A stretch of 64,000 bases of DNA from Trileptium ribeirensis (taxonomy: Eukaryota > Nematoda > Enoplea > Enoplida > Thoracostomopsidae): assembly GCA_030248225.1 (NCBI GenBank), contig JASANE010010146.1, forward strand, positions 1 to 64,000, in the 5' to 3' direction. Below are positions 19,981 through 51,872 of this stretch, piece by piece. A model generated the notes under the pieces. That model made no database searches. It saw only the letters and a program-made list of their open reading frames with translations, and was not told where the DNA came from. The position numbers and the translations under genes were made by a program. Numbering within the stretch: the stretch's first letter is position 1; each line of letters starts with the position of its first letter.

Positions 19981-20284
19981 ATGTGGCTGTTCCGTTTATC
20001 GTTAATTATAATTATCGTTCTCGTACCCCGCCAGAGCGAATTTGTTCAATGCTACAACCAAAACCCAAAAATCTACGTCGACGTTGAATGTATAAATTTT
20101 ATCGATCCGTTTCTTCACGGTTTCGATGTTCATTTACCGGCTCGCTTTATGGATCAGTATTTAAGTCCGTTCAATTCACCGCTGCTCTATGCAACTGCAA
20201 TCCCGATGAGTCCGTCAAGCACAGTGGAACCGATTCGAAAGAAGCTCTACTACGATCAAATCAAGGATCATATAGTCAATATTG
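19981..20284 (+). CDS. Variant exon V1: signal peptide and N-terminal half of an FN3 domain
   Basis: Encodes 101 residues plus one base (phase-1 end) before GTAAGT at 20285. It starts with a hydrophobic leader (MWLFRLSLIIIIVLV) ending around a Cys just before Y-N-Q-N-P. The mature part has the family signature: YVDV-x-C-I-x-F-I-D-P, HG, VHLP, then Y-x-T-A-I-P and KLYY-x-Q-I-K-D ending I-G. The pattern fits FN3 strands A to E, with the missing F/G strands supplied by the constant exon at 51283. Spliced, the protein would be 297 residues, secreted and probably GPI-anchored. I chose the ATG at 19981 because it gives a clean signal peptide; an in-frame ATG at 19918 also exists. No private downstream exon is visible before the next variant. 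By hand alignment V1 is about half identical to V2. The biological function is unknown. Confidence 0.8.
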
Positions 20285-20410
20285 GTAAGTTAGTTTAATA
20301 AAGTAATGGATACGTATGCCTAATGCTTTTTATGCTTGCAATCACTGTGTTTGAAGCGCACGTAACTAATAAGTCACATTACAATTATAAATTTGCAATT
20401 TGAATGCAGA

Positions 20411-20522
20411 TGAACTGCAATTCCGATGAGTCCGTAATGGTCCAGGGAATTCTGCTATCAGCAGATCGAAAATCATACTTATCAATCAGTATTGGTGTGG
20501 TAGTTTAATAAAGTATGGATAC
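20411..20522 (+). pseudogene. Decayed partial duplicate of the end of V1 and the start of its intron
   Basis: The sequence from GAACTGCAATTCCGATGAGTCCG to TAGTTTAATAAAGTATGGATACC parallels 20193-20312, where V1 reads GCAACTGCAATCCCGATGAG and its intron reads TAGTTTAATAAAGTAATGGATAC. The copy has indels, and the donor GTAAGT has become GTGTGG. It therefore lacks a start, a reading frame and a functional donor. It shows that this exon type does duplicate locally. Confidence 0.7.
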
Positions 20523-22221
20523 CTGTGTTGTTACCATACCCGTACGGCAGCACGCGGTGGGTTGGGGCGAGGAGGTGCGGACCACACCCCAGCCTACATT
20601 TTACATGGGAAGGCCTAAATTGCGGTGGACCCCCAGTTTTTATGCGTTCCTATAACTTTGCCCAATTTTCCCGTATTTTGCTAAAAGTTTCCCCAGTTAG
20701 TGCAAATTTTTAGCACAAATTTTTGCCAAATTTGCCAATTCCGGCCACCTTTGGCGCGTTCGCGATGATAGGGATGGGGCAAATGTTGCTTGGTGGAGTT
20801 CGACTTTCAGGGTTAACACTCTACCCTCTTATGGACAGCTATTTTCTATACACCCTGCCAGTCGTTTGTCCAGATTGGAAAATTTTATGTAACTAAACTA
20901 CTTGTGTGGCTCGTACAGCTGGACCCTCCCACCCGCAGCTAGTGTGGTACGGCCCTGTGCCATACAATGTATTTGTGTGCTTGAGGCATAACTTCTCCGC
21001 CATTGATCGCATTTGCGAAATATAAAATTTAAAATCGCTGCATCATGTTAAGTGAATTTTAGGGCCATATAGTAGGTTTGGTTATTGATTAACATATTGA
21101 GCAATAGGCTTCGCTTCTTTAGTTTAAGGATTTATGCCCAACGCTAAGCTAGTAAGGTACAATAAAATTATGGTATTTCGAAAAGTGGATAAGATCTTTA
21201 TTATTAAAGTGTCAAATGTTATACAATAAGTGGTGTAACTTTTGTTTGCTGATCTCGGTTTGCGAACGGTGTTACTGAATCAGAGTCAGATTTGTATGGG
21301 TACAACAGAAATATTGTAAAAGTTAGCGAAAGGCTGTCGGTACATTCTAGTAGCTAGGACTGTGTAAACCAATGGCAGTATTTGGGACCCAGTTTTGAAG
21401 TCGAATTCAAAAGAATAAGGGAAAGAGTGTCGGGGACATGGATTTGTTTTCAAATGTGTGGGGGGGTGGCAAAACCATCATATATTATGTTATAGATGTC
21501 CATAGGGATAATTCTCCAGGAGATCGCACCTACCTCTTGTCGTGACGGCTGAGTACCCCTGGCCTTTCCCAGACGCACGCTGCAGGTATTTTGGTAGCTT
21601 TGGCTAAATTTGGCAAAAATTTCCTAATAATTTGCTCAAATTGGCAAAAATTGGGTAAATATTCTCGGTCATCGCAACATCGTCTGTCGCCTTAACAGAA
21701 AGTCAACCCCCAATCCTCCAGATTGGAGCACATGTAAAGTGGGACTCCACCATTAGAATACACCCTGTGCTAATGCTGTAGCTACGGTGACTGTATATCT
21801 ATGACGTGATTAATATTTACAATTCAACAAGATATGATCATACACGTTCATAGGTGAAAGGGAGGATTACCTCCCTGAGGCTCGGATACCTCCTTCCGCT
21901 GGCCGGCTGCCGATCCTGCCACCCTAGTGCGTAGTCCAACTCCCTCCCCCTACGGCGGCCTAATTTTGGCGATAAACGAGGAAAAATCGGGGGAAAATTG
22001 GCAAAAATCTGGAGAGATTAGCAATAAACGGGGGAAATTGGGGCAAAAATTAAAAAAATTGGGTCCCAAAGGATAATTTATCCTTCTGACGACCTCTCTA
22101 ATGAAAAAATCCCCCTGGGAGCTCGGTCTTCGTTCATGTATGGATATCATTGTGTACCACTAACCTCAGACAGCTGTTAATTTTCCAAAAAAAATGTTTT
22201 TATCTGTGAATCTCGAATTGG
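20523..22221. other. V1 intron, repeat-rich segment
   Basis: Contains pieces of the dispersed C-rich/AAAATTGG repeat at about 20540-20770, 21530-21720 and 21840-22140. No coding exon recognised. Confidence 0.45.
21840..22140. repeat. Dispersed C-rich repeat, copy 3
   Basis: A C-rich left flank (TCCCTCCCCCTACGGCGGCC), a core of repeated GGGGAAATTGGCAAAAAT-like words, and a right flank containing TCTGACGACCTCTC. Same layout as the other copies listed. Confidence 0.5.
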
Positions 22222-22914
22222 TCGTCACTGGATTGCTGGATTATAGTGAATATTTATAAAACACGTAATTGAATCTAACTGTGCACAGTTCACGATATTT
22301 TCTGTTTCTGCTGATCCAATGCTTTTCCGCGTATATTCTTGCAGAACCGATATAAATGGCAAGATTTTTTAGATTTGGCCACTTGGTGTTCCCAGCGGCT
22401 GGATTGATGGATTGTTGTGAATTTTTATAAGTCAGGCATATAATTGAATGTAACTGTGCAAAGTGCATAATACTTTGTGTTTGCGCTGGTCCAATGCTTT
22501 ACTGCGTATATTCTTGCAGAACCGATATAAATGGCAAGATTTTTTAGATTTGGCCACTTGGTGTTCCCAGCGGCTGGATTGATGGATTGTTGTGAATTTT
22601 TATAAGTCAGGCATATAATTGAATGTAACTGTGCAAAGTGCATAATACTTTGTGTTTGCGCTGGTCCAATGCTTTACTGCGTATATTCTTGCAGAACCGA
22701 TATAAATGGCAAGATTTTTTAGATTTGGCCACTTGGTGTTCCCAGCGGCTGGATTGATGGATTGTTGTGAATTTTTATAAGTCAGGTATATAATTGAATG
22801 TAACTGTGCAAAGTGCATAATTGCACTTTGTGTTTGCGCTGGTCCAATGCTTTACTGCGTATATTCTTGCAGAATCGATATAAATGGCGAGATTTTTTGT
22901 TTTAGCCACTTGGA
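22222..22914. repeat. Tandem array, 175-bp unit, about 4 copies
   Basis: Successive units repeat CGTATATTCTTGCAGAACCG, GGCCACTTGGTGTTCCCAGC and GGCTGGATTGATGGATTGTT at intervals of 175 bp. The two middle units are nearly identical and the outer ones are diverged, typical of homogenisation from the centre. The near-identical 72-75 codon minus-strand frames it produces are repeat artefacts. Confidence 0.9.
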
Positions 22915-23721
22915 ATCCAATGCATTTTACGTTATAGCACATTATTGGTCGAGAAATTAACTGACAGGCAGATTATTTTCATAAAGCTGCAACGTTACTT
23001 TGTGCAATTTTAAAAAATCAGTCGTTTTCGAGCTATTTCTGATCCAGTGTTTAAAAGTACTCAAGTAAAGAAATTTTCAAAATTTTGGTTAAGTGAGTTT
23101 CTTGGTTTTTGCGATGAACGATAAGCTTATAAGGTTTATTTAGCTCGTTAAACATGTTAGTTTTATTATTTTAGATTTGTCTTAGGTATGTGACTAGCGA
23201 AGTCAAAGGTCATTAGCCGGTTGCAATGGGCTAAAAATGCTAAATTTCTTGCAACAGAAATGGTCAAAATTTGGCATATTTCTCTAATTAGTTGTACGTA
23301 AAAGACGTCAATAGTATTACAGGTTTTCGGGGTTTCCGAATTCTGGGAAGGCAATTGTATCCAATATAGCAAACGTTAGGCGCCCACAGTGTGAAAATAT
23401 ACTCTTGTGAAACTCTTGTTTCTTGAAAGATGCTTAGTGATCTCTCTTTTTGGCCATTGTCTAAAGATATATAAAAGGATTCTGTGGTTTTGATATTTTC
23501 AGAAAGGGGTCACGACGATAACGATGCCCTTAATTCACTGCTAATTTATAATTATTAACTTTACCTGTCTTTCAGGGGGCTCAGTAGGTTTAATTTAGAA
23601 CGTCATAATAGTCTCCAAGCACAGATTATGTATCAGGGGGTTTTGTAGCCCAGCTTATCACCTGTCTATCTATCTATGTAGCAACAGATACTTCGTTTCC
23701 CTTCTTCATGTCATGTGTTTC
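22915..23721. other. Intronic non-coding spacer
   Basis: No feature recognised between the 175-bp array and the 37-bp minisatellite. Confidence 0.4.
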
Positions 23722-24279
23722 GGATCACCTCGCTTCACTAGTGCTATCCGATAGGATAGGATCACCTCGCTTCACTAGTGCTATCCGATAGGATAGGATC
23801 ACCTCGCTTCACTAGTGCTATCCGATAGGATAGGATTAGCTCGCTTCACTAGTGCTATCAGATAGGATAGGATCACCTCGCTTCACTAGTGCTATCCGAT
23901 AGGATAGCATCACCTCGCTTCACTAGTGCTATCCGATAGGATAGGGTCACCTCGCTTCACTAGTGCTATCCGCTAGGATAGGATCACCTCGCTTCACTAG
24001 TGCTATCCGATAAGGATAGGATCTCCTCGCTTCACTAGTGCTATCCGATAGGATAGGATCACCTCGCTTCACTAGTGCTATCCGATAAGGATAGGATCTC
24101 CTCGCTTCACTAGTGCTATCCGATAGGATAGGCTCACCTCGCTTCACTAGTGCTATCCGATAGGATAGGATCACCTCGCTTCACTAGTGCTATCCGATAG
24201 GATAGGGTCACCTCGCTTCACTAGTGCTATCCGATAGGATAGGATCACCTCGCTTCACTAGTGCTATCCGATAGGATAG
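23722..24279. repeat. Minisatellite, 37-bp unit, about 15 copies
   Basis: The unit is GGATCACCTCGCTTCACTAG followed by TGCTATCCGATAGGATA. Most copies differ by 0-2 bases, and a few have an extra A (GATAAGGATA), giving 38 bp. Each unit contains TATCC-GATA-GGATA, a 5-bp stem with a 4-nt loop, plus the palindrome ACTAGT. A 75-codon minus-strand frame arises because three units equal 111 bp, giving a 37-residue periodic product. There is no start context or splice signal to support it as a protein. Confidence 0.95.
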
Positions 24280-26059
24280 GTAATTTTTTTACAATTCTCT
24301 AACGAATATGTTTATTGTGATGTGATTTGTATTCGAAGGTGGGGTTGTAAACAAGAGTTGATTTATTTGTTATCCTTTAGCATATATTGTTGTTCGGCAT
24401 AAATGGCTGATTGGCGTTTTGTGAAAGCTTAAAGGATCCACAGTGAAGGTTCTCTTGCTGTGCAGCTCGTGGAAGGTCCCTGTATGTTATATATATATAT
24501 CTAAAAGCCTGATTTTTAGTCGGCGTTTAAACAAATTACTAAATTTAGGGTAATACTGTTTCCGTCTGGCGAAACGTTTTAGGATGATGCCATGTTCCCC
24601 AACCTGTAGTGGTTCACGTCTAGTTTTCCGTTTGGTTGTTCATATAATGGTTTTTCGTTTCAACTTAGGCATACGCTTTGGTTCAAGCCTAAGCCAACCT
24701 AGGCTCACATTTGGAAATCAAATTTTTGGCCCTTCCATTCGATATAAAGTTTGCTTGTTACTATGCTACTTATATCAGTTTCACTTACTGTTGTAAATGA
24801 AAAACTTTACATAATCCGTAATTTGTCCAATCGTACAGGTGATAAAGCCAATCCAGTTTGAAGGTGACCATTAAAATAAAGCGTGCTGTTTAGATAAGCT
24901 ACTATTGAAAAGTTATTGGAATCATATACGTTTAAGCTAAAAAAATCAAACTCGCTAAATTTAGGAACATAATTTAGATTTGAAACAGTGTTTGTTGAAA
25001 GAATAAATAGTTTCATCCGAGAAGGTTAGAAAACTGAGAGAGAAACGTGTAAATTTAATTTCTTTTTCGTTGAATTTCGCTATCTTTGGTCAAAACTCCA
25101 AACCATAACCCACACAATTTGTGAGAGTTTGAGCTTTGTGAGTAAAACATACAAGAATAAAATTAATAAGACTAATCGCTTGCCGGAAACAAATAGACAT
25201 TATTATTGTGTCCTTTGATTGCGGGCCGGGTTAGGGCGATTTTGCGGTCTCACTGTTTAGGCGATGATAAGAATTTTGTTTTCTGAAAAGCGATGACATT
25301 GGCCAAGGCAAAAGAATTTACCGTTCGTTACTGAGTTAGTTAGAATGAGAAAATGTGTGTATATAATCAATTGTAAATTTTTTTGGTGTGGAGAGGTGTG
25401 AATAGTTTGTGGGTTGGGTAACTTTCGTCGTATGACAATAAACAGAAAACAATATTATAATTTCGTTTTATTGTTGTATTTCTTGCCGCAGACTATGCTT
25501 TTACTCTTTGTGTATATGCGTTCACCGTTGGAGGACTTTCAAATTCACGTTTTTCATTGTCTATGTAGTATATATACATGTTTTGAACATGACTGTTTCG
25601 ATGAATTTTTGATAAATTATAACTATTTCAGTAACTAAACATGCCTTCGAATCGAATGGAAAAAAATTCCCTACGCTCGTAAGCTTTGCGTTTCTATTGT
25701 GTGTAGAGCAAATTGAACAGGTAAAGAAACACACAAATAAAAGCGCTACACGTCAAAGCATTCAATATTTTCATATTTTCGAAAAACTCACGCTTTAATG
25801 TAATATGTTCGTGGTACTGTTTTTTTTAAATTGGTCAAAAAATTTATCTACAATTTCAAGTTTACGTATATTGTGTTTGTAAATTATTATGTGTTAATAT
25901 GTGGAGTATCATGTCATTGGTGTTGCCACTGTCTGGGTGGGGGCGTGCGTGCGCTCCCGTCTCCATAATCCATCTTGTTTACAGCTGTAAAAAGAATTTT
26001 TCTGTTTGCAGCTGTGAAATCGATCTATTGAGTCGATCGATATCATGCATGCTCCAAGA
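24280..26059. other. Intronic non-coding stretch
   Basis: No exon supported. A minus-strand frame at 24807-25016 follows an acceptor-like TTTTTTTAG and a plus-strand frame at 25414-25638 has a hydrophobic start, but neither has a family resemblance or partner exons. Confidence 0.4.
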
Positions 26060-26420
26060 TAGAGGGGAGAATTAAACTACCTGAGCTACGAACCCCTCGG
26101 GCCATCGCCATTGTCCTTCTAATGGACGTAGCGTAATCTCCTCATAAGGCTCCGCACCAGCCTGCCTCCTCGGCGGCGAAGGCTCGCCGAAAATTTTGGT
26201 AAAATCTTGGGAAATGGGCAAAATGTGGAGGGGGTAAATTGACCAAATAAAAACCTAGGGGAAAACGATGACCAATGTCGAGTCACCAAAAATTTTTAAT
26301 TCAAAAATTTATACCGACTGGCTTATGCCCCTTCCCAGGGGCGACCCCCCATCTGGAGGAAACGCTATCCCTCTGGGCGTTTGGAGTTGGCGCATGTATG
26401 ATCTTTACCCATAATGTGTC
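26060..26420. repeat. Dispersed C-rich repeat, copy 4
   Basis: C-rich flank (ACCAGCCTGCCTCCTCGGCG), core with GGTAAAATCTTGGGAAATGG, then a C-rich right flank ending GGCGCATGTATGATC. Same organisation as the other copies. Confidence 0.5.
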
Positions 26421-26480
26421 AGTGTCCTCCAGATGAAATTTTCGCGAGACGCCCCTCTTACGTATGTATATAATATATAT

Positions 26481-27896: not shown

Positions 27897-27904
27897 GTAT
27901 ATAA

Positions 27905-30942: not shown

Positions 30943-31040
30943 CAGTATATATTATATATCGTTATTTTAAAAGTTTTCGTAAAGTTTCAAGGTTTTTTCC
31001 AACATATAATTGGCGACAGATATATATTTTAATAATAATT

Positions 31041-31065: not shown

Positions 31066-31363
31066 ATGCGATATCGTCTTGCTTCGATTGCAGTTTTAAG
31101 CTGGACAATCTCGTGGGTCGCAGCTTATAACCAGAATCCTAAGCTGTATGTCGATGTTAAATGTATCGATTTTATTGATCCACTAATGCATGGCCTAAAC
31201 GTTCATTTACCTAAAGAGACACTGTCCCAACTTGCTAATCCGGATATGCTCGAAGCGACTATGTATACTACGGCAATTCCGCTGGACCCTTCTCAAAGTA
31301 GCAACAAAGCAATACGAAGTAAACTCTACTATAATCAAATTAAAGATCAAATGCTTCATATTG
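31066..31363 (+). CDS. Variant exon V2: signal peptide and N-terminal half of an FN3 domain
   Basis: Encodes 99 residues plus one base, ending at a phase-1 donor GTAAGT (31364). The leader MRYRLASIAVLSWTISWVAA looks like a good signal peptide cut just before Y-N-Q-N-P. Shared signature: YVDV-x-C-I-x-F-I-D-P, HG, VHLP, TAIP, KLYY-x-Q-I-K-D, ending H-I-G. It is closest to V1; between VHLP and TAIP the two differ strongly. Joined to the constant exon it gives 295 residues. The in-frame TTG 12 nt upstream is not a likely start. No constant-type exon lies between here and V3. The frame stays open beyond the donor to 31464, so an unspliced read-through product would be short and would lack the FN3 completion. 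Confidence 0.8.
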
Positions 31364-34327
31364 GTAAGTATAAGTGGCTTAATGCGATTATGTATGACAC
31401 AAAAATGTCGGAAATGCTGTTATTTCAACCTTTGAAGCTATTGAACGCTGCAGTAAACAAGTAAAACATTTGGAAACATATATAGCCAGTTACGAAATGA
31501 ATAATTTTGCGAATGCTTTAGAAGGGTGTAACCAGGGTGACGGGTGGTTTTCTAGCCACTTTTTCGCTCGCTTAATTTTTTTGATAATTCGTCGAAAGAA
31601 AGGTTTGATTGGGTTCGAAATATTGTAATCTGAGGGTAAGTGTCACCAAAAATTTACACAAATTTATATACATATAAATAATATACATACACGACTTTTG
31701 CTAAGATTGTTCTTCGACGGTGCAGCTATGGACCATTTTGGTGACTGGGCAGCTGTGTATGTATGAAATAAGGACGAATGGACGAAATATGCATTTCGAA
31801 ATTCTGGCTTCGCCCTTGGGTCACTTCGCATTTTCAATGTGTTTTAATATGTTGTATTCACAATCTCTAAGCTACAACTATTAGGTATTATTGTTACGTC
31901 CAAAATTGAGATATATATTTGAATATGTTTAATATTCAGCGGTGTTGCTTAAGTTTGATGAGGGTATCATATGTGAGAATTTTTTTGAGAAATCTTTGCT
32001 GATGACTTTTTTTTACAATATTGCAAATTTGAAAATCTTATACAATCTAGAGTAAATGTTTTTCCACAAAAATAGCAGTGCTAACTTGTTGAAGCTACAG
32101 TTGTGCATTCCGGCGATTTTGACCCTAAATTCCGAGTTCCTGACCGGATATTAAAAATTTATTCGAACAATGTTGATGGGTCAGCGCAGAGGCTGTAATT
32201 TATTTAAGACAAATACTGAAATTCTGGTCATACTGAAGTTCTCGGAACAAATTAATTATGAGTAAGGATAACGGAAACTTCGGAATATCGAAAACAAGTC
32301 TCTTTTAAATGAAATCATAATTTTAATCATTCCATGTAGTTGAGAAGTTAAAAATTCTTGTGTATAAGTGTTTATATATATTTATATATTTATCATTAAC
32401 GGTGTCATAAGGTCACAGGGTCAGGATGCGACCGTTGCATTGCTGGTCCGGGTATCTAGGTATCCTGATATTGCATCCTGTGAGCAGTTGCAAAATGTTA
32501 CTGGTTTAGAAGCCATAAAATTGATTTGATGATGCCGAGTATACACTGTTTACTGATATGCTTTCCGGTAACCTTTTGAGAAGAGATTTTCTCGTTGGAT
32601 GGCAAAAACTAGTTTTAATGGTCCTCCACCAAATCTGGAAGCACGGTTTCCAATGTTTCGCAGCTTATATCTCGCGACCCAGGCTTCCAGAAACCACTAT
32701 CCGAAATCAGCTGAAGGAGATCTACAACTTTGTTCAACATCACTTGTTTTGTTGGACCACTCTCTGTGCCGCTTTATTGTTGACGAACTCGATTTCCAGA
32801 ACGTAGTCTGTTTTTATTTATCCGATTATCTATGGCTATCTGGGCATCAAAATATGGCCTATATGTAGGTTTTCCTGAGTGCTGGACAAGATGGATTCGT
32901 TACATAGAGTCCGGAAAGAGTATTTCATACTTTTCAGCGGTTTTCAAGCAGTTTAGGATCGACAAACCACATTTGTTGGTCTTCACTTGGTTGATTGTTA
33001 TACGTATATTGCTTTCAGTACTGAACAAAATGCCATAGAATGATCAAAAAATTTTATCGATATATCATGAAAATTCAGGGAATAAGCAGATTTTTAAATA
33101 ATACCCCGTGGAAGTTGCATATTGTTCTGGAAATTTCTCAATTCAAATAACAAACATCAGATGCCACAAAGTTTCACTTTTGGTCAGAAATTATATATTT
33201 AGCCCCAACTGTTTCGACAGTTGCAAGTTAGTGGCTTTTGCACAATCCCGATCTCTGGCTTCCACTTGGCTCTGGCGGCTCTCTGGCAGTTCATTGAAAT
33301 TATCAAAATATCCAAAACATTTCAAATTCATTCTGAATAATTTAACGTTTAGTTTAAATTGAAATAGCGCTCCAGATCGAATATTTCAGCTTAGCCTATT
33401 TTAATAAAAGACGGTTTACTATAATAGGCTTAATCGTTGACTCAGTGTATGCCTATACCGCAAATATTAGTGCAAAATCATCTTATCAATATAAAAATGT
33501 TTGTTTTTATATCTCAAATCCTTTATAGGCACATCATAAAATAGAGTTGTAGTAGTGAATGGTAAAGTCTAGTATCTAATCTTTGAAGTTTAAGTAAAAG
33601 TTTGAAATTTTAAAATATGGTCTCCATATCCTTATATCCGGATTATTCGAGGTATCCCACAATTTACCCATATATTCGTATATGGCAATCCATAACCCTG
33701 CCCATCACTAGGCGACCGTGTTGTCTTCATTAGGTTCTGGTTCCATTTGGACCAAAAATAAGTATATATGGCTGACCAATATGCGGTCATAGTAATTATT
33801 ATATCAATTTTAAACATTTCAACTCAAGCGGTCGAAGAAGCGCCTAGCCAATTAACACCATATAATAGGTGTGGCATTAAGAAATTGATTGTATATAATG
33901 TAATCAAATTTCAAATTGTTGAAAATTAATTATCGATTGATTGTAAACAAAGCCATTTCTTTACCAAGCACATTGAATTGCATGCATTATATATAGGCTT
34001 TTACATTGAAGTAGAAGCAAATTGTTTTTTCGCAACGTTTCGAAAGTATTATTCAAGTTTTGTGAGGTAAGCTAGAGTTTATCTTTGGTAGATTCATAAT
34101 GAAGCCGATGCACACAAGGTTGTGTTTGTATAAAATTTTTTCGACTCAATCGCTTGGAAAGATTCTCGGTTTTTCAGGTTTGGTTTCTAGTGCTTTATAT
34201 CGCCAAATATACAAAATCTTTCATTTCAACGGGGTCGACATCCTAATTGTGTTTAAATATGCGTAAGCTAATTATACAGTTAACTTTTTACAGTCGCCCA
34301 TTGTGTTGTTCTATATTGTTGCATTGT

Positions 34328-34410: not shown

Positions 34411-35959
34411 TAATTAGAATGAATCATTATATCGCCAAGTATAGAAGATCATACACTGCAGCGGCTTTTGGCCGTAATTGTGTACCTACCATATGTGCGC
34501 TAACTCTATTAGCCAACTTCTAACAGTTTTTTCCCAATGTGATATTCTACACATTGGTTGCTCCAAACAATTACTTACGTAGTTGAACAAGCTCATAATG
34601 CAAGTAAGTTTTTGTTTTAAAGAAAAAGATCTCAAATTATGTCTAATTTATTTGCTTAACATTCTTTTTAAATACATATACATATACAAAGAAATACACA
34701 CACCAAACCGATGACAGTAATATGACACTTTCGAAACGACCAGAGCAAAGATGTGGTTAATAGATTATCGAAATGAACGGAATTAGCGTGGCATCTAGTA
34801 CATATAATATCGACGTGAAACCGTTTTTTTCTGTGTCAATTATTGCTATTTATATATATATGGGTGTCAAATTATGCACGATAGTAAGTTTTCATCCATT
34901 TCTGTCTCTTGCTACTAACCGGTATTTATATATTTGTTTTCCCAAAAAATTCGAAGCTTTAAGGGTGGTGCTGCATGGGGCGATAATTTTGACAATGTGA
35001 AATTTTGGCGCTTTTATTTTTAATTGTAATGTTGAGAAATAGATGGGCTATACATTTTTAGGGAAGCTGGGTACGATGAAAGCAATTGCGTCAAACCCAG
35101 GCAATTCGGCAAGCACTAAGGCACTACAGCGTAAATATTTTTCTAATTGGCGCTTTCCCATACCCGAACTCAGCAAGTAGGCCCATCTTATCCACGCTTG
35201 AGATAAGAAGTTACTAATATGAACCTAAAATTGCAGCCACTGTTTTTCTTTCTTAATATGCTGCATGTGCATTTTTACCTTTCTTTGACTTTAAAGAGGT
35301 ATCTGGAAGCTTAATTTGGAACCTCAAAATTTGCAATGAACAATGACTAGCCACAGTCGTCCCGTTCTCCTCAGCGTTTTAATTCCTGGTGTTAAACAAT
35401 TCTTAGCAACGTTAAATATTCAAAATTATTTTATGTTGCGTTCTCGCAAGTATACGATAATTAACTGATAATAACAGGTTTGGCAGTAGTTGTTTGTCGC
35501 AAGACACTAAGGAAGAGCCGTTAGGTTGTAGTTTAAATAACGGCCTGGCTAACAAATACTGTATTCCTAAGTGCATTAAAAATTCTAAATATGTTAGTGT
35601 TTGATTGCCTAATTGTTGCCTAATTTTTTATAAAGTGTTTAGTAGAAATCGCGAAATGCGTATTATGAAATTGAAAGAGCTAATCAAATATACCTGAGCG
35701 AATACAAAGACAATATATTTCGTTTGTAAGCTAATTTTTGATGGAAATGGAAATGTTTTACTATAAAATGCGCCATTTTGATATCCAAAAGGCGTGAAAC
35801 CTGAACTTTGATTCCGGCAAAAATGCTCGGAATTTGTCACAACAAAACCACTTTATTACAGCTAATCTGTTCCCGACTTTTTCCAGTCTAATGTTGGATA
35901 TTCAAATGTCATTCGCGTACAGAGATTATTACGACCCCTAGAACATATGTATCGATGGG

Positions 35960-36785: not shown

Positions 36786-37065
36786 ATGATGTGGCTTAGA
36801 ATAATATTTATGCTTTGTCCAAATTTGATAATTTCATATAATCATAACCCGACGGTGTTCGAGGACACAGTTAACATTATAGCGTTAGTTGATCCGCTGC
36901 TGCACGGCTTCAGCCTACATTTCCGAGAAACATTCCTGAAACATATTTCGAGCAGGTTTATTTCAACTGTTTTATATGCTAGTGCAATGCCGCTGGAGCG
37001 TAAGCTAATATCTCAACGGAAGCGGTTCTATTACGAAGATATTAAGCGAAGTGTTATAATTATAA
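36786..37065 (+). CDS. Variant exon V3: signal peptide and N-terminal half of an FN3 domain
   Basis: Encodes 93 residues plus one base, ending in the phase-1 donor GTAAGT at 37066. Two adjacent ATGs (36786, 36789) start a hydrophobic leader (MMWLRIIFMLCPNLIIS), followed by Y-N-H-N-P. The signature is kept but diverged: L-V-D-P, LLHGF, LHF, Y-A-S-A-M-P, R-F-YYED-I-K-R, ending I-S. It lacks the Cys that V1 and V2 have before I-x-F-I-D-P. It is the shortest variant, giving 289 residues after joining to the constant exon. The final codon becomes Ser, as in V4; V1 and V2 give Gly. The frame runs on beyond the donor to 37217, but that tail is unlike the family. No constant-type exon lies between here and V4. 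Confidence 0.75.
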
Positions 37066-40000
37066 GTAAGTTTGTATATTTATTCTATTGTTACACCTTG
37101 CTGTTGCAGACAATTATATATTACCATCTGGAGAGTGACATTTTCCCGCACGTTCTAAGCTATTATGTTGCCTTATCATCTCTTGAAAGAACTGTATATT
37201 TTAATCATCAGTGCTAGGCATTAGAAATCACACCAACCATATTATGAACCTTGCGCTAACATTTGCCTTCAACCAAATGGATCAGTCACAATCTTTCTCT
37301 ATTCAAATCATTTCTGGATAACATCAGTGTTACTTGCGTTGTCTGTTGCAAGCAATTTAGTTGTACAATAGGCAGCTGTGCGCAGTGCGTTGAAATATTT
37401 GGAAGGAAGGTTGTGATGAGTTATAACGAGTAGGAGTTTAGAGAATTACTTTACGTACAAATCTTTGAAAGCACTGCTGTTTATTGTAGAATTAACTTGT
37501 AACACAGGTTATACAGTTTAAGCTGTGCGTACAAACCTATTGGTGCACGACACATCATGTTACAGGTCAGTTGCAGCATATGTATAGGCATCCCAGTTTA
37601 AAATGATTTGTATGTAGGTAGTAACTCAATCAAATGCATGGTTAAATATGGCGCAACTTTTACTTCGCTCCGATTGCTTTTGTTATAGCTGTCATGATGA
37701 GACATTGTTTTCAACTTTTGAGACTGCATGGTGAATAGATGATAAGGTATATATACTAAAATGTTTTACAAATTTACCTAATATGTAAAGTGCAAACAAA
37801 AGTTGGTATATAAATTATAAATGCATAAATTTATATATTTCGGTACTCTTACCTTCAATTGCGATTTACTAGCATCAAATATTGCTAGTAGTTCAGTAAA
37901 CAGTATTTGTTGATTAAATAATAACATACATTACAGTAAATATCGTTATCGTAAATAATTAGGCCGACGACACATTCATAATGAACTTAGCCCAAAAGCG
38001 TTCAATATTGTCAAGTGTATTCAGCGCGGCTACTTAAAGGTTTTATAAAGTCTGATGTGCTATTCCCCGTACTAGTTTCCGTTTTAGAATGTACATAAAC
38101 TATATATAGGTCTTGTTTTGCAACACACTGTATGCAATATGTCATATTGTTAATTATGATGTGATTAGCATTTCGGTTGAATATATACCATACACAAATT
38201 TATGTTCACCGATCTAAGGTAAGTTGGTACATACAGCTGCACAGCGTTTCTTCGAAACTTACTTTTGAAGTTTGCCGTTGAAATTTTGTGCAAAGTTGCA
38301 TCGGTTCTGCAGTATTTTAACAGTAAGACTATAATACTTTTATATCTTTTCTCTATTCATAATGGATTTTGTGGCATGGCTTACAGCGAACAACATTCGA
38401 TCCTGCACCATACTCACGTATAGCTATCGTTTGTAGCACATATCTGGACGGGCTAAATGATGTCTGATCAACTTGAACGACTCCTTCCAGACGTATTAAT
38501 ACAAAATTATATATGTATTGTCCAATTTCCACTAATTCTGATAATACCGATCTGAGCACAAAATTAATTGTAACCATCTTGCATGGTAGCGCTGAGTTAT
38601 GAGACAAACAGACAAACCATTTTTTGCACAGTTGACCACTATTTTGAGGAAACTCTGCTGGAGACGTATACGTACCTATATATGCTGTGGAAATAAAGAA
38701 TCTGATTTAAGATAATTCATTATTATATATATAGATTAAATTGTCTTAAATTAGGCTTCTTTATTTCTGTACAAAGTATTGTTACGCACGCAGTTTAAGG
38801 CTGATTCTCATATCAAGAAAACACCCAATGCACGATCGCATCTATTCCTATATGTGAAACACACTAATATGTATCTATATTTGTAAAACAAACATTGAAG
38901 TTTATTTTTCCCATCAGAATTTAATTTTATTTCTCCGACATTCTTTCTTCCCCTGTGGCATACATTTTAGATTTATCTGTAATAACCCTGCTTAAATGCT
39001 GAAAAGCTACGACGGTTATATGCTAGAGCACTAATAATTATAGGTCAACAGCAGTTAAGCGGCAGCAATTTTTCTGTTGTCGTTAAGATTTTGTCTCAGT
39101 GTTTTGAGGCAATAGCAGTTTTGTTTTGTTTTAGGCGGTGACGTCGAAATATATATCATTTTCATCAATATATAACTTTTATCATAGAGGCTTGCAATTT
39201 TTGCTATACAAAGACTGCAAACTATATAAAAATAGCAAAAGTGTGCAGGAAAATGTTATTTTTATATACTGATTGACTGTTAAGCACAACTACACTGTTA
39301 TTGATAATAACTTATTCAGCTCACAAAAACTACTAAATATTATTAGTTTTTGGTCACATTTCAGGTATGGTTACTACTACGATATAAGTGCCAAGACCTG
39401 TTGGATTAGGGGAGGGGAGGAGCGCTAGGAGGTAGATTTTTGGGGTATGTGACAAGTCTCCCATGCATAGTGTACCGTGTCAAATTTTTCCATACAATTA
39501 TTCGATTAGTGTTTCGTCTTTCTAAGCCTGAGCCTTAGTCTAAGCCTGATCTCATAGTTAAACTTTAAATTTTTGCCCTATATATGGTACTCAGATAAAG
39601 TTTTCACTACCTATAACGGGAACTTGCCATCGTCCGATTTTTACAAATGTCTACAATTTTCCTTGACAAAATTTTGCTATAATAGGTAAGATTTTGTTAA
39701 TATCGCAAAAATTTAACTAAAATTCTTAAAATTTTGTTAAAATAACTAAAATGACCTATTCGCCTTCGGCGCGGGAACGGGGTGCATGGTCGCAGTATTG
39801 GGTGGGTAAATATATCCAAAATCTTTCAACCTTCTCACTATGTGCGCGATACCTTAGCGTTGGCGTAATTTTCATTCACTTTCTACAGATTCGGAACAGT
39901 GACATTATAATTAGTAATGGTTTGCTGTAACTATTGACCCACTTAAGCGCTGTGGGGTAATTTTGATGTGATTGTGTAAATATAAATGCAAGTTTAGCAA

Positions 40001-43466: not shown

Positions 43467-43780
43467 ATCTTGGTGACGAGCCGATGTTGGCTATTTATTT
43501 ATGGAACTTTTTTCTGTTTTTTTGCCTAAATAGTTATTAGTCAGGATATCTTGGTGACGAGCCGATGTTGGCTATTTATTTATGGAACTTTTTTCTGTTT
43601 TTTTTGCCTAAATAGTTATTAGTCAGTATATCTTGGTGACGAGCCGATGTTGGCTATTTATTTATGGAACTTTTTTTGTTTTTTTTTGCCTAAATAGTTA
43701 TTAGTCAGTATATCTTGGTGACGAGCCGATGTTGGCTATTTATTTATGGAACATTTTTCTGTTTTTTTGCCTAAATAGTT
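43467..43780. repeat. Tandem array, about 82-bp unit, 4 copies
   Basis: The unit carries ATCTTGGTGACGAGCCGATG, TTGGCTATTTATTTATGGAA, a T-rich run and CCTAAATAGTTATTAGTCAG. The starts are at 43467, 43548, 43630 and 43712. Copies differ mainly in the length of the T run, so the array is young. Confidence 0.95.
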
Positions 43781-44119
43781 TTCAACTTACTTTCACTACT
43801 TGCCATTTATGAATTGTACAATACTGTAAACTCAGATAAAATTCTATCAGTTTTGGTATAATTTTGTAGCGTATATATTCATGTTTTCGGACAACATGCT
43901 GGCTCACCTGGTTCGTAGCCTCGTAGTAATTCGGTCTGTGTCCCTCAAATCATGCATTTTTGTAGTTATTTCGGTAACGAAAAATATAACTATGGCAGAA
44001 GTAACAGTTTCTGTATTGATTATTGCTTCATTACTCACATTGCTCATATATACACATTACTCCCTATAACAGCGTCGATAACCAATGTAATGTATACGCG
44101 GAAATGGAATATAATATTC

Positions 44120-44222
44120 TAAAAGCTTGTTCACACGCTCAGGCTTTTTGCTCAAATTTTGATAAAATTTTGATCTAAATTTAAAAGCAATTTTGGTAAG
44201 TTTGAACTTGTGAACACTATTC
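44120..44222. mobile_element. Short MITE-like fragment, family 'TTCACACG'
   Basis: Begins CTTGTTCACACGCTCAGGCT, with TTTTTGCTCAAATTTTGATA inside and AGTTTGAACTTGTGAACA at the far end. It resembles the elements at 12424 and 52690 but is much shorter. Confidence 0.5.
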
Positions 44223-44683: not shown

Positions 44684-45618
44684 TAACCAATTTCAGTCTC
44701 GGGGAGATTAACCGAAAAAACCCCAGAAGCCAAGCAGCAGCTTAGAAAGAAATAATGTATTTTGTTGCATATGATAGTTACTACAGGGTGAATTCTACTG
44801 AATTCACTTGTATTTATTGAAATCTTATACCGAATGACCATATTTGGTTTCATTCTTTTGCTAAAGATATATTTGTCACTCGGATACCGCGGCATTTTTA
44901 GTATTTCTCAATGGGCAGTTTAGGTTTTTGGTTATCGCAAAACTGACAATGGTTCTCAGTGCACAAAATTGGTAACAAAGTAAAATTTGTGTATTACAGG
45001 GCTTCAATTCCACGAGAGAACAGGGTCGAACGCTAATGTCTGATAATAAACTTGAATCTTTCGAGTAGTGCTTTTCGGGATTTTGGGCGACGCCAAGGCA
45101 ATAATGTGATGTTGATCCCCTAACATTCTTGCACAATTCATAGGCTTTTCCAAGCTTACTTTCGTTTATTCAAAGTTTGTTTGTATGTAATGTGCTTAAA
45201 TTAGTGCATATATAACTGAATTTCTTTTCAAAATATATAGTTTAAACCATATAAGACAACACAAGCTGTTGGGAATTAGCTATTATTAGTATATACCTTT
45301 TCATCTTTTCCGATTTTTCATTATTTGACTGAACTTCAATTTTTATGGTAATTCTCGCCTAATTTCAGAATAAATTTAGACTTATTTTCGCAAATACATT
45401 TTTTATTTATCCGACTAAAGCTGTTTTTAACTAAAACTGTTTCATCTAACTAAAGCTGTTGTTAGGAATATTTATAATCTAAGGCTTCTAGATTTCTCAA
45501 TACAGGTGTACTAGAGTAGTCTACGTGCGCCCTCATATACCGCTCAAAAGTTGTCTGGCTGGAAAAGTGATCGTTAATCGAATACCAGCATTATAATTTC
45601 AACTCATGCCCTATAATC

Positions 45619-46175
45619 AACAACAACAACAATGAATTTATAACGCGCTTTTTTCGCAGGAGCGTTGCAGAAGCGCAAAAAGAGAATGTAATGATACGTG
45701 TACAATATGAAAAATTGTCATGTCATTGGGAATAAATGAGTCTTTAGTTTAGATTTGAATTGAGTAATTTCAAGATCACGATTTCTCAATGTGGCTGGCA
45801 GTTTATTCCATTCTGAGGGTCCCAAAAATTGAAAACTGCCATTTCTTGTCATATCAATACGCAATACCCGTTCGTTGGCAAGTCGCGATCCTGTTGAGTT
45901 TGTGAGCATGTCAGCAATATATGTCGGACTGTTGACACTAAGTGCGTTGTATACCAGTAAGAGAATCTTGTATTGAATGCGTCGGTCAAGAGGCAACCAA
46001 TGAAGATTTCTCAAAACGGGTGTTATATGGTCTTGTCGACGGGCCATCGATACTATTCTTGCCGCTGAATGTAGAAGCCGACGGAGAGGCAAGAGGCTAG
46101 CACTGGGCAGTCCACAGTATAGCGTATAGCGTATACAGTAATCATTGATAAATTGCTTTGCAAATACTTTATTGT
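45619..46175 (-). mobile_element. 5'-truncated LINE of the L2/CR1 clade, reverse-transcriptase C-terminus
   Basis: On the minus strand an open frame gives the typical end of an L2/CR1 reverse transcriptase: I-N-D-Y-C, then Y-C-G-L-P, then A-A-R-I-V, H-I-T-P-V-L-R-N-L-H-W-L-P, Y-K-I-L-L-L-V-Y-N-A-L, and finally W-N-K-L-P-x-x-L-R and F-K-S-K-L-K-T-H-L-F with a stop at 45718. The frame is open for 124 codons below 46092 and the family resemblance continues to about 46175. Below the stop is a 3' UTR (CGCTTCTGCAACGCTCC, GCGTTATAAATTCATTG) ending in a (TTG)n tail at 45619-45633, the usual hallmark of this clade. The catalytic FADD region, ORF1 and the endonuclease are absent, so this is a dead-on-arrival copy. 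Confidence 0.85.
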
Positions 46176-47241
46176 CAGAAATTTATTTGTTTTGTTTGTC
46201 GCATAGTTCAAAGTAAATGAGAAGAATTTAACTATAACTAAAAGTTTTCTAAAATTTCATTTGGTTACTTCAAACTGTAATATTAACTATATAGTTTAAT
46301 GTTGAGTCAACACATTTTCAGTGTACCGACGTGGGAGGGTGATTGATCCAAGTTTAAACGACACGTATGACACTAGCCCCCGAATTTTGAGCCTGAGACT
46401 TTAAACTATGAGTGCGGTGATCGCGGGATTTCGTGCTTTAAATATATACCTTTTATATATCAGAAATAAGCCCCGATTTGTCAGTTCGGGTCCCGTCTGT
46501 CACCGGGTCACGATTTGTAACCCCGTCTGATTTAGAAGCCAAAAACACTCTGCTCTGTACTGTACTCAACATAACAGAAGAGCGCTTTTTGTCTTCTACC
46601 ATGTTGGTTCTGCTCTTCTGGAAACTCAAACGCACGTAAATCGAGCTCTACAACGGCGCTTGATAAAAGTTCGCAATAAGAATCCGACCAGAACCTTGGT
46701 AGGTTAGTAATAAGATGATGGGCTGGCTCGTGAGGCACTTTCATGTCGTGCAGCTTGAAGACAAGTTTTATAGCCCTAGACAGCAGATATATTCCTTTTC
46801 AAATCAGTTTCACTTCAAAGTTTCAAATCGCCCACAAGCGGCTTCACATGATGGGAAAACTACTTCCAAGGTATAGCCAAACGACTTACTTTTAACTTGA
46901 ACACTTACCAAATTCGGTTCAGCACTGTAGTCTCTGGTCAAGGCCTTGAATAAAAACGCAATTGTAATCCGTCTGTAATAGCGGTTTGCTAAGCAGATAT
47001 TAGCAGTTTTCCAAGATAGTTTTTTTACGAATTCCGAGAATTACTAAACATTGGCTGCTTTGGAAATTAACTTCTAACTAGGCTACGACCGTGACCGGGT
47101 CGTCGGATCTTCAGGTCACTGCCATGATCGCGTTACCGGTTTTCTTGCCACTACCAAGGCCGGTCACCGATCTACAGTATGGTGACCCGGCTCCATCTCT
47201 GATTTTTGATATATATTATTTTTAATTGCTGTTTTCTCTAC
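46176..47241. other. Intronic non-coding stretch before V4
   Basis: Contains GTCACCGGGTCACG at about 46498 and GTGACCGGGTCGTC at about 47090, perhaps parts of one diverged repeat. No exon recognised. Confidence 0.4.
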
Positions 47242-47243
47242 AG
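47242..47243 (+). other. Probable acceptor (cis or trans) upstream of V4
   Basis: The AG of TTGCTGTTTTCTCTACAG, which has a good pyrimidine tract, 20 nt before the V4 ATG. It is the best of the four sites in front of the variant exons and resembles the constant exon's acceptor TTGCTGTTTTAG. Confidence 0.55.
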
Positions 47244-47263
47244 CAATTTATTACGTACTACAA

Positions 47264-47582
47264 ATGATCAAAGTAATAGGTTATATATTCATACTGTTCG
47301 TATTCAATGCAGTATTCGTCCGAGTTCGTTGCTATAGTCAAAACCCGATCACCTATATTGATACGACACTAATTGACTTTGTTGATCCGCTTGTCCACGG
47401 TGTCGATGTTCATCTAAACGAACAGCTAATCGAGCAACTTTTCGCTGATCGCTCAGTGATTAGCGATTTTTATGCTACTGTCGTTAAGTTAGTAAGCGCG
47501 AGTACGAGACGCGATTTTGACGAAACTAGTTTACGTTGGAAATTAGATTATCACCAAGTTGAAAATCTTATTGTTCATATCA
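47264..47582 (+). CDS. Variant exon V4: signal peptide and N-terminal half of an FN3 domain
   Basis: Encodes 106 residues plus one base, ending at phase-1 GTAAGT (47583). The hydrophobic leader MIKVIGYIFILFVFNAVF runs up to a Cys before Y-S-Q-N-P. Family signature: Y-I-D-T, L-I-D-F-V-D-P, VHG-VDVHL, Y-A-T-V-V, and W-K-L-D-Y-H-Q-V-E-N ending H-I-S. It is the longest variant, with an extra run of about 10 residues (around S-T-R-R-D-F-D-E-T) before the last strand. It is closest to the constant exon (intron 3.7 kb) and would give a 302-residue protein. A conventional two-exon gene needs no more than V4 plus the constant exon, so this is the least disputable product of the locus. Confidence 0.85.
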
Positions 47583-47811
47583 GTAAGTTAGAGGATAGAC
47601 TATATATATGAATGTTTTAGTGGTGGCTACCACTATAGAGAAAACCATAGAATGTTATGACAGCACAGAGTAATTTCTTAACTGGGTGTTCCACGGTGTT
47701 CGTACATAATGCACTTTCCAGTTCGTATGGCAGTGGTGGTGTGTTATTTCACATGACTGTAAGTTGGAGCATAACTAAATGAATGCTTTTGTTGTGTATT
47801 CAGTGCCGTGC

Positions 47812-47871
47812 CTAGAGCCCCTCTCCAAAACCCCGTTTAGGGTGCAGCGAAGTCTGCAGAGGGCTCTAGGG
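47812..47871. repeat. Hairpin within the V4 intron
   Basis: CCTAGAGCCC...CTCT pairs with AGAGGGCTCTAGG around a loop of about 34 nt. The flanking CAGTGCCGTGCC resembles a hAT-type terminus, but I found no matching far end. Confidence 0.5.
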
Positions 47872-48529
47872 AAGTGCCGTAAGCAGCAAAAAATTAAAGT
47901 AATCTCAAAAATACGTCATTCTTGTGCCCAAGATATTGCAATTATTTGTGTAAAATTGTGCAGATATATACATATGGGAGAGATTAATATTCGCTCGATT
48001 ATAGAAATCTTGGTGGGGCCCGCGCTATCTGTTCGGAGGTGGGTGCGGCTGGGCCAGATAGACACTACTGTATCTATCTTGCTGCTACCAAGAATCGTTT
48101 CCCACTGTTCCAACATAACTTCTACCCCAAACAGGATATAATGTTTATAATTATAATTTGAAAACGGCGTTTTTCATGGTTTATATACGCAATATATATA
48201 CCTTAGAGTTCATAATGGGTGTTCCGATTCAAGGACTTCTATTAAGTATCCCCCGGAGTGCTTTTGAAACTTAGGAATTGTGTATTAACATGGCAAAGCT
48301 AAAGATTTTCAGACTTTTCCGCCGCTGCGTCGACTATCATCGACCCTTGGTAATACTAAAATAAACTATTTATGGTCGGCTGCATGATTCAAAATGTATT
48401 ATATATACATGCATTATTGTGCTTAGAAATTAGTTTCCTTTCCTAAGTTTTTATATATTAAAATTTGACCTGGATTTTTATTTGATTGTCAAGTTAGTTT
48501 ACAAAAGTAAACTCGAAATGCTTATATAT

Positions 48530-48870
48530 GTTTAATATTTAGCAATATTTTGCTAATTTTAAGCATAACTAAGCTAAATTTCTTGCTAAATTCTAAGTAT
48601 TATGCTAAATTAGTTCCTAAAATGTTTAACATAAGTGTAGCTTAATATTAAACAAAACTGTGCTTAAAACCTTAAAATTTAAACATAATATTACTAAATA
48701 TTAAGTAGAATTTTCAGCTTTGGTTTTGATATATACTTTAATTATTTAACATTATTATGCTTAATTGTTAGTTAAGTTTAATAAAGCTTAATATTAAGAA
48801 TCAGATTTTGCTAAAAGTTTGCAATAAGCATAACTATGTTTAAAATTAAGCATAATTATACATATGCTAT
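48530..48870. repeat. Low-complexity block built from TTAAGCATAA / TTATGCTTAA words
   Basis: AT-rich sequence in which TTTAAGCATAA, GCTAAATT, GTTTAATATT and their reverse complements recur irregularly. Because both strands of the same word are present, the transcript could pair with itself in many ways. Not a regular tandem array. Confidence 0.6.
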
Positions 48871-50081
48871 GCTAGACTATATAAATCATATTTCTGCGTA
48901 CTGGATGCTGTGCTGTAATTTTATGCTATTATATAATATACTTGTGCTTAAAAACGAAGCCTTGATGAAATTACTTATTGTTTGCCTACGCTTGTAACAT
49001 ATGGACATTAAAGTTTCCTAAATTTTTCTCCAAATATTAAACTGTGAAACAGAGTCAAGCTCAACAGGGTCGTCTTTCCCCGCCGACTTCGCGGTGCCCG
49101 TTCCCACCGCTGTGGTTTCGCAAGATAGTAGATAGGAACAGTAGGAATCTCGTTAATCCATTCATATGCGTCATTAGACGTCGAGCATTTGGGGCATTTG
49201 AGGCATTTGGCTACCTTAAGAGAGTGATAGTTAGAGGAGTGAAACAAACCGTAAACATCATGATCCGTTTAATGGTTAATAATGGTGTGTTATATGTAAG
49301 AGGTCACAGAAAATGAAAATCATCGCAGTATATTTCAGAGTTACTCCTGAAACTACAAAACTCTCAGTGTAATTAAGTATTTTTAAATTTAAGTCAGTTT
49401 AAGTCAAATGCGTATAGCCTAATAGTGTATCAGGTCTGAAGAACTCCAATATAAGTGAAGCGGTGTAGCCTTAAACGTTGGTTGCTATCTATGGAAATAA
49501 AAGATTTAGCTGCTTTCCGCTGATGGATTACAGAATTTACCAGAAGCTTCAGCAAAATGCCGCTATTTACATACTAGACATTTGTAATCTAAACTTTTCA
49601 AATTCTATATATAATCTAATCTTCAAATTTTGCCACTTTAATTATTCGTATAATTTTGTTTCTTGTGGGTACATCAAAATTGTTGACTTTCGATTTTGCA
49701 CATTTTATAACGAATCTTATTTAATATATAGTATGTACCGCATTTATGGGTGATTTTTGGGCGACCCGTACTTGTGTCTATAGCATAAAAGAAGGCGCCA
49801 ACAATTAATTATAGTTTTTTTTAGTTTGAAAACCAGTTCAAAAAATCACGTTCTGCCAACATAACGTTTAGTATTACTGCATAAAATACTGGTAGCGCCG
49901 CACGGTAGTTATAACAAAGGAGCGCAAAGCACAATGTCCACGATTTGAATTTCGCTTTTGTCCTCCAGGCTTCCTCATCTCCTAGGTTGTGTGTTCATTT
50001 CACATAGGGCACCTGAAATGTAGTTTGATATAGTGTGCAGCAGTGTTGGGTTTACACAAAATTATTTACGTTTACAGTATA

Positions 50082-50424
50082 ATTACTAACATGACTTGTT
50101 TCGTTCAGGCAATTGTAAAATAGTTAGCATACTGGAATTGTATCCGCTGTATGTTATTGCGACAATAACGGAACCATGAAAACTAAACATATTTATACCT
50201 TAGTTTCAGTGGTCTCGTACCACAAGTAGTTTTCGGTATCATAATATGATCTAAACATATGATTATTAACATGACTTGTTTCGTTCAGGCAATTGTAAAA
50301 TAGTTAGCATACTGGAGTTGTGTCCGGTGTGTTTTATAGCGACAATAATGGGCCCATGAAAACTAAACATATTTATATATACCTCAGTTTCAGTGGTCTC
50401 GTACCAAAGGTAGTTTTCGGTATC
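50082..50424. repeat. Two-copy tandem duplication, about 180-bp period
   Basis: Copies at 50082-50240 and 50262-50424 share ACATGACTTGTTTCGTTCAG, GCAATTGTAAAATAGTTAGC and CAGTGGTCTCGTACCA. They are about 95% similar by eye, so the duplication is recent. It lies in the intron directly upstream of the constant exon. Confidence 0.9.
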
Positions 50425-51282
50425 AATGTCTCTAAGTACGTGGTGTACAGCACAACAATTGCTGCAGGAAGTTCGTTCGAAAATATACGTTTTTTCAACA
50501 TTATGCAGCTTGCAAGAAATATTTTTTCCCGAAATTAAATTTGGCCCAAGTCAAGCTAAGGGGCATAACGTTATATCCTAAAACAGAACAACTTAGTGTG
50601 CGAGTTGGCTGGGCAGAAGCATCCGATACGGAAGCTTAGTAGATATAAGGCTTATATAAGGATATTAGCTAATACGCAGGCTAAGACTTAGTATATTGAG
50701 GACGGCACAAAATGCCCTTAGCTTGACACTGGCCGCATTTTCTATATTTATAACATATCTATTATGAATACTCCAAGTGGCTTTTATTTGTGCGTGCATT
50801 GAGATCTCAGCTCAGAGGACGTTGTATGCCATCAATTTTAAATGTTTTGCGCCATGGCGAATACTATTTGCAAGCTAAGAATTTTTAGTAGTACCTATCA
50901 TTTTTTCAATTTTTGCGAAACTTCTACCATTATGGCATGAGAAAAAGAGATTTTATTTCTGTTTTATGGAAAATGTGAATATGTTAATGAGTAATCTTAC
51001 CAGGGCAAAACAATAGTATCGCGGTAATTATCTTAGTGTTTTACTGAATCGCTGTGCCAGCTTGCAACAAGCTGAAAGTTTGGATTTTTCAACTACAATG
51101 ATATAAAATTTCAGAAGGTTTTAACTGTCACTATGTTTATGTATATATTTTGAAACCAAGAATATGTTACTCCAATATTTGCTATTACGAGTTTTTCATC
51201 TTCAATGATCAGTTCTACTAAATACTGTTATACATATATGTATATATTTGTTAAACTCTAAATATTTTCGTTGCTGTTTTAG

Positions 51283-51872
51283 GCAATCTTGAAGCGAAAT
51301 CATGGTACTACGTTTGTATCGAGTTCGAAAATATGCACCGTGACCATCGTCAAGGCAATACATCAACGACATGTCGACTTGTACGAACACTTGATCAGTT
51401 CGGCAAAGCAGCCAGTTCTGTTGTAGCCGATGTCAATTTGGTACTGCTCTCAGACGTTAGTATGGAGTTTCAGCTTGCTGTCGACAGCACTTTTCCGCTT
51501 TTGCTCGACGTCTACTTGGAACAAGGTCCAACAGCGCTGCAAACATTCTACGTTAGTCAGCCTAAAACAATTCATGTTACATTCGATCATCTTCGGCCAG
51601 GATTCAACTATGGAAGACTATGCGTTCGCGAGGCACCGATATCGGTTTCGTACACCGCCATGGGACGTACAGTTAATGTTGCACGAACGGCATGCTATTT
51701 GGAAGAACTTAAAACGGAACTTTTACAAGTTGTCGCGTCTGAACCCGCAGCGTTTGTCCGTGAAAGTCGAGATGTTATTCCGGCGTCCGCCGCTTCAAGG
51801 TATATTCACGTCAGTTTGATCGCACTGATGCTAAACTTGCTAACAGCTCTAACAACATTATCTGCCAAATAA
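51283..51872 (+). CDS. Constant exon C: end of FN3-1, FN3-2 and GPI-type tail
   Basis: The acceptor TTGCTGTTTTAG precedes the exon. Its first two bases (GC) complete the split codon (Gly after V1 and V2, Ser after V3 and V4), followed by 195 residues and a stop. Residues 1-36 begin N-L-E-A-K-S-W-Y-Y-V-C-I-E-F and end V-R-T-L, the F and G strands of an FN3 domain with Cys 11 and Cys 30. Residues about 45-145 form a second FN3 domain with the matching motif H-L-R-P-G-F-N-Y-G-R-L-C-V and Cys 113 and 137. N-T-S at 25-27 is a potential N-glycosylation site. Residues 173-195 are a hydrophobic tail preceded by small residues A-S-A-A-S (167-171), as for GPI attachment; a very short single-pass anchor is the alternative. 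It is the only exon of its kind in the window. It resembles invertebrate two-FN3 surface proteins in layout; function unknown. Confidence 0.88.

Follow-up and report, generated by a model that had tools for sequence, protein, structure and literature searches.

A predicted tandem array of alternative first exons sharing one last exon in Trileptium ribeirensis

A stretch of 64,000 nucleotides from Trileptium ribeirensis (hereafter the window; positions 1-64,000 of contig JASANE010010146.1, assembly GCA_030248225.1, a contig of 66,787 bp labelled C6724) carries four related exons, V1 to V4, followed on the same strand by a single constant exon, C. These exons probably form one gene, in which four alternative first exons in tandem are each predicted to splice to the same last exon. 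Its protein products, secreted or anchored in the membrane, would number at least four and would differ only in their signal peptide and in the first part of FN3-like domain 1. A sequence-only reading of the window had proposed such a gene, with at least four N-terminal protein variants, in preference to four genes truncated at their 3′ ends. That proposal is supported by the recurrence of the arrangement on contig C905, a run of V exons on contig C5645, the lack of C remnants and the signs of selection on the V exons.

In the proposed gene, transcription would begin separately at each V exon, presumably from a separate promoter. Splicing would then link the phase-1 donor of that exon to the C acceptor at 51283, removing a predicted intron of 3.7 to 31 kb, so that later V exons would lie inside the intron between an earlier V exon and C. 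Anchoring of the products at the cell surface and recognition through their variable loops are plausible further steps. The array itself would have arisen in two stages: an intron split the first domain between two of its strands, and the V exon was afterwards duplicated by itself.

The V exons and the constant exon

The exons and their signals are as follows.
19981..20284, + strand: V1, predicted first coding exon; signal peptide and first part of FN3-like domain 1; 101 full codons and 1 base
20285..20290, + strand: V1 donor, phase 1, G/GTAAGT
31066..31363, + strand: V2, predicted first coding exon; 99 full codons and 1 base; V1 query match at E 7.9e-23
31364..31369, + strand: V2 donor, phase 1, G/GTAAGT
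36786..37065, + strand: V3, predicted first coding exon; 93 full codons and 1 base; ATG at 36786 or 36789; V1 query match at E 1.2e-10
37066..37071, + strand: V3 donor, phase 1, A/GTAAGT
47264..47582, + strand: V4, predicted first coding exon, 3.7 kb before C; 106 full codons and 1 base; V1 query match at E 3.7e-10
47583..47588, + strand: V4 donor, phase 1, A/GTAAGT
51277..51282, + strand: acceptor of C, TTTTAG/GC, phase matching all four V donors
51283..51872, + strand: C, constant last exon; rest of FN3-like domain 1, whole of domain 2, stalk, hydrophobic C-terminus and stop codon TAA
52072..52077, + strand: AATAAA, possible poly(A) signal, 200 bases after the stop

Each V exon combines a start codon and a hydrophobic N-terminus of signal-peptide type with an open frame and a phase-1 GTAAGT donor, exactly where the sequence-only reading had placed them. 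In V1 a second in-frame ATG upstream, at 19918, is a possible start; the ATG at 19981 directly precedes the hydrophobic stretch. At the protein level V2, V3 and V4 are 47%, 38% and 34% identical to V1, and their likeness is not due to chance, since V1 retrieves all three in a genome-wide search at the E values listed. It had also been claimed that V1 to V3 are well diverged yet free of stops and lost donors. This agrees with the identities given above, and all three are open with GTAAGT in place; among random 90-codon frames of the window contig, 211 of 20,000 are open.

The assembly searched comprises 687 Mb in 20,229 contigs, and other loci are named here by contig label (C905, C5645, C7937 and so on). 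The constant exon was searched for with a profile of 15 C-type proteins in every frame of 15 codons or more on six contigs, of which C5645 was covered only to base 20,000. On the 66,787-bp window contig it found no second C exon or C remnant at E<0.1, the best stray match (E 0.11) lying at 54571, downstream of C. A second C was likewise not found on C905 (39,965 bases), where the best stray match (E 2.7) is on the opposite strand. Neither contig contains a single N, and a C exon concealed by a gap is therefore excluded. The earlier claim of a single downstream constant-type exon, with an acceptor phase that fits V1 to V4, thus survives the profile search. The layout is that of variable first exons: tandem homologous exons on one strand, each with its own ATG, a common phase, one acceptor and no private copy of the constant part.

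Selection on the V exons

The V exons also bear the mark of maintenance by selection, as judged from identity at the three codon positions. Among the window exons (6 pairs), identity at positions 1, 2 and 3 is 0.51, 0.67 and 0.37, against a chance level of 0.26. The corresponding values are 0.48, 0.68 and 0.37 (chance 0.29) for the 28 pairs on C905 and 0.56, 0.68 and 0.36 (chance 0.29) for the 21 pairs on C5645; all were taken on a protein-based alignment, which raises positions 1 and 2 somewhat. Codon-position identity was used in place of the ratio of nonsynonymous to synonymous substitution rates (dN/dS), third positions being near chance. Because positions 1 and 2 are kept while position 3 is near chance, the V exons appear to be old copies maintained by selection for their protein. 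Two broken exons (905_g and 5645_c) were left out of the V tree and of the entropy, codon and acceptor tables, and 7937_a, whose start is cut by the contig end, was left out of the last three.

Related loci in the genome

A genome search with V1 yielded 40 matches from 42 candidates, and one with C yielded 16, itself included, from 19; match counts for large families are lower bounds. The V list seems nearly complete, because a V exon of C905 used as query retrieved 39 matches, all of them among the 40 found with V1. Four paralogs (on C16583, C8690, C19762 and C19046) hold V and C in one open frame. Their removal leaves 36 separate V-type matches, at least five of which are broken, cut or inverted, and 12 separate C-type matches, one of them a fragment.

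The arrangement of the window recurs on C905, where nine V exons on one strand (eight intact, one frameshifted near 24310-24555) are followed by one C. A tenth V lies at the contig end (C905:39551-39901, + strand); it is an inverted, near-identical copy of 35260-35575 on the − strand, with its frame shifted near its end, and is possibly an assembly palindrome. On C5645 a V-C pair is followed by seven further V exons, six intact and one with stops (8346-8642), and by no further C match. C7937 carries three V exons and no C on the contig. Seven loci have one V and one C in the same strand and order, 1-6 kb apart: two each on C11365, C16695 and C13103 and one on C15810. C19998 holds a V-C pair broken by frameshifts, C1804 a C 0.8 kb from the contig end without a V (a candidate partner for the V exons of C5645 and C7937), and C9506, C9011 and C5048 one V each without a C. 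The V of C9506 belongs to a 1-kb copy of the V1 region (21803-22769, 83% DNA identity) that ends 20 bases before the donor and continues as an open frame of other sequence. It was set aside as a dead copy, cut short of its donor.

Exon models were made for 28 of the 36 V exons; the remaining eight are those of C9506, C19998, C9011 and C5048, the inverted copy on C905, two on C13103 and one on C11365. Of the modelled exons, 25 have an uninterrupted frame from their ATG, another has an open frame that the contig end truncates, and the remaining two are broken. In each of the 25, an in-frame stop precedes the ATG by 9-183 bases, in itself a weak sign, and on account of these stops the V exons are consistent with first coding exons. 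A hydrophobic N-terminus was found in 22 of 26 V rows, the segment having been misplaced by the script in the other four. On the side of the constant part, an AG in matching phase lies just upstream of all 12 C-type exons. A hydrophobic C-terminal stretch is present in 10 of the 11 complete split-type C exons, that of C5645 being the exception; the stretch may be a glycosylphosphatidylinositol (GPI) anchor signal or a membrane span.

These loci bear on the reading of V1 to V3 as the 5′ remains of tandem genes without 3′ exons, which would leave V4-C alone as a working gene. Broken V copies do occur, on C905, C5645, C9506 and C19998. However, no C remnant was found between V exons on the window contig or on C905 at E<0.1, and V1 to V3 are open, keep their GTAAGT donors and show the codon-position pattern of selected sequence. 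The same 3′ loss would have to be assumed for at least seven more intact V exons on C905 and also, even with a C immediately beyond the contig ends, for five on C5645 and two on C7937. Such remains are accordingly an improbable account of the window.

Another reading has the V exons and C transcribed separately and joined by trans-splicing, as is known from Drosophila mod(mdg4). The anatomy would be the same, and the C5645 run and the C7937 trio without a C on the contig, together with introns of up to 31 kb, could be taken in its favour. Trans-splicing does not require V to precede C on the same strand, yet this is the order in the 11 loci that have both, with the inverted V copy on C905 as the exception. 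We consider trans-splicing about as improbable as 5′ remains.

Predicted protein and its relatives

Pfam returned no family for V1 to V4 or C even at E 1, with no FN3, cadherin or immunoglobulin (Ig) match among the results. Database searches led to eight uncharacterised relatives of 236-344 amino acids, among them P0006 (A0A1I7SMH1) from Bursaphelenchus xylophilus. Six of the eight (P0001-P0004, P0006 and P0008) combine the V-type half with most of the C-type half in a single chain, and the complete ones among these have hydrophobic ends. P0001, P0006 and an intronless paralog gave no Pfam family at E 0.1. The predicted structure of one relative shows two FN3-like domains, the first of which is cut at the V-C border. 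Its fold matches include many FN3 proteins, sDscam FN3 structures among them. On this model the domains have the FN3 beta-sandwich fold and are "FN3-like", not members of the FN3 Pfam family, whose profile they do not match. The sequence-only reading had located the variation in the N-terminal half of the first FN3 domain. The fold and a border inside domain 1 are both retained in the predicted model; membership of the Pfam family is not.

In the same model the first domain without C misses its last two strands. This argues against private short 3′ exons for V1 to V3, which would yield secreted half-domains or proteins with other tails. A short exon of unrecognised type would be invisible to homology searches; even so, the presence of GT at the matching place in all 28 modelled V exons also argues against private exons, which we regard as a slender possibility, of much the same order as trans-splicing.

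Three of the one-frame paralogs (C16583, C8690 and C19762) continue into a hydrophobic segment, followed by a long polar in-frame tail in C16583 and C8690 and by the end of the frame in C19762. An intronless paralog used as query found no match in other species, in a search that also missed the known relative P0004; a direct comparison of P0004 with this paralog gives a tblastn E of 4.7e-68.

Sequences flanking the V exons

The 7-mer TTAGCAG occurs within 300 bases 5′ of 7 of the 22 array V exons (for instance at 31039 and 47000 in the window), against 0.52 expected, and seven of its eight occurrences on C905 are on the gene strand. It led the candidates for a shared promoter motif and was set aside in that role for want of a fixed place. 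A spliced leader or a hidden 5′ exon before V was also considered. Acceptor-like sites are not enriched there: 3 of 25 V exons, V3 among them, pass at p<0.1 (Kolmogorov-Smirnov p 0.23), in a test of low power, passed by just 5 of the 12 C acceptors. An exact match to the canonical nematode SL1 exon is absent from the 687-Mb genome. Downstream of the array V exons, no 7-9-mer other than donor-like ones stands out within 300 bases (best p 2.5e-4, for 7-mers, uncorrected), and this, with kept donors that would be unneeded, makes it scarcely credible that a somatic DNA rearrangement selects one of the V exons and brings it beside C, a scheme that the V-to-C layout alone would fit and that nothing direct favours.

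Several observations weigh against one gene with alternative first exons. GTAAG is the donor in 21 of the 28 modelled V exons (GTAAGA in 905_i), and the other seven, none of them in the window, are weaker: GTGAGT, GTACGT, GTTAGT twice, GTATAT, GTAGGC and GTATGT. The ends of the modelled exons were placed by eye, so their phase is partly a choice; the presence of GT there is not. The presumed C partner of the C5645 run and of the C7937 trio is absent from their contigs. TTAGCAG has no fixed place, shares the top of its list with T-rich words and is marginal after multiple testing. In V4, TTTTCTCTACAG lies 20 bases before the ATG, and a 5′ untranslated exon or a leader could be joined there. V4, the nearest to C, could be the only V exon in use. 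Finally, a database search with V1 joined to C found nothing near-identical and no transcript of the species, the best matches having 43-53% identity.

History of the array

The V exons group by contig in a tree of 30 V sequences (7 changes, against a mean of 19.0 after shuffling; none of 200 shuffles was as low). The 22 array V exons stand together at 94/90, just short of the support that the tree program marks with a star, in a group that includes neither the single-V loci nor the intronless clade. Within them, the four window exons form one weakly supported group (75/41), and the exons of C905, C5645 and C7937 are intermixed. In the C tree, from which P0001, P0007 and C19998 are absent on grounds of pattern or length, the window and C905 are sisters (90/87); the four presumed array-type C exons do not group together (3 changes, a value equalled or undercut in 92 of 500 shuffles).

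From these sequences, with a root that is not fixed, we infer an order in which a one-exon gene acquired an intron inside domain 1 and the V exon alone was then duplicated. The likely earlier stages are found in the same genome, as the four one-frame paralogs and the seven one-V-one-C loci, before the arrays.

Genome identity and other features of the window

The genome is very likely that of a nematode, judging by its matches to the cuticle-collagen N-terminal family PF01484, which we take to be a nematode marker. This family gave 64 matches from 104 candidates, and none in a control of 14 well-known genomes, which includes eight prokaryotes by name and excludes no other animal. At C17193:64554-65603 there is a cytochrome oxidase I-like stretch with stops, probably mitochondrial DNA in the nucleus. 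The window also contains several tandem arrays with a 260-base repeat unit at 3001-8523. Further arrays have units of 175 bases (22266-23004), 37 bases (15 copies, 23722-24280) and 82 bases (43467-43780). A Pfam scan of five other open reading frames of the window returned no family.

Comparison with known systems

In the vertebrate clustered protocadherins, the variable exons encode a whole cadherin ectodomain with its membrane span. Like the array described here, the protocadherin (Pcdh) alpha and gamma clusters have tandem variable first exons, a common 3′ part and a cell-surface product. In contrast, V here encodes a portion of an FN3-like domain, the remainder coming from one C exon, and a Pfam cadherin match is absent at E 1; the Pcdh clusters have three constant exons, according to excerpts of PMC1885805. 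A second parallel is the chelicerate sDscam family, which, in the excerpted text of PMC4835542, shares tandem 5′ cassettes, an adhesion-type protein, several loci of differing cassette number and an in-frame stop before the ATG. The same excerpts describe 2 to at least 40 cassettes per locus, each of 2 or 4 exons that encode whole Ig domains (Yue et al. 2016, PMC4835542). There, the upstream stop was used alongside RNA sequencing (RNA-seq), 5′ rapid amplification of cDNA ends (RACE) and promoter assays (PMC4835542, in part). The cassettes described here, unlike those of sDscam, are single exons cut inside an FN3-like domain and have no Ig or FN3 Pfam match.

The UGT1 cluster is also similar, with tandem variable first exons, a common 3′ part and birth-and-death of the variable exons with pseudogenes. 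However, it encodes enzymes, has four constant exons and is termed a vertebrate-specific layout (both points as given in excerpts of PMC1885805). The uncharacterised relatives, such as A0A1I7SMH1, are by comparison known as single proteins, most with both halves in one chain.

A search of the open-access literature found, among the papers listed, no report of such an array in a nematode. Our preferred interpretation is that the locus, in a protein family unrelated to the protocadherins, is a cluster of variable first exons arranged like theirs. A broader and rather doubtful proposal, put forward tentatively, is that nematodes independently invented a repertoire of the protocadherin or sDscam kind. 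At several loci, cells, tissues or individuals would use one first exon from a set of four to eight or more, placing varied FN3-like tips on a common anchored protein with the switch point in mid-domain, as a system for cell identity, for mating or pathogen recognition, or for surface variation. A variable-first-exon array in a nematode would itself be a further unrelated case, with an exon that ends inside a domain, and would show that evolution reaches the variable-first-exon design of the protocadherins and sDscam repeatedly.

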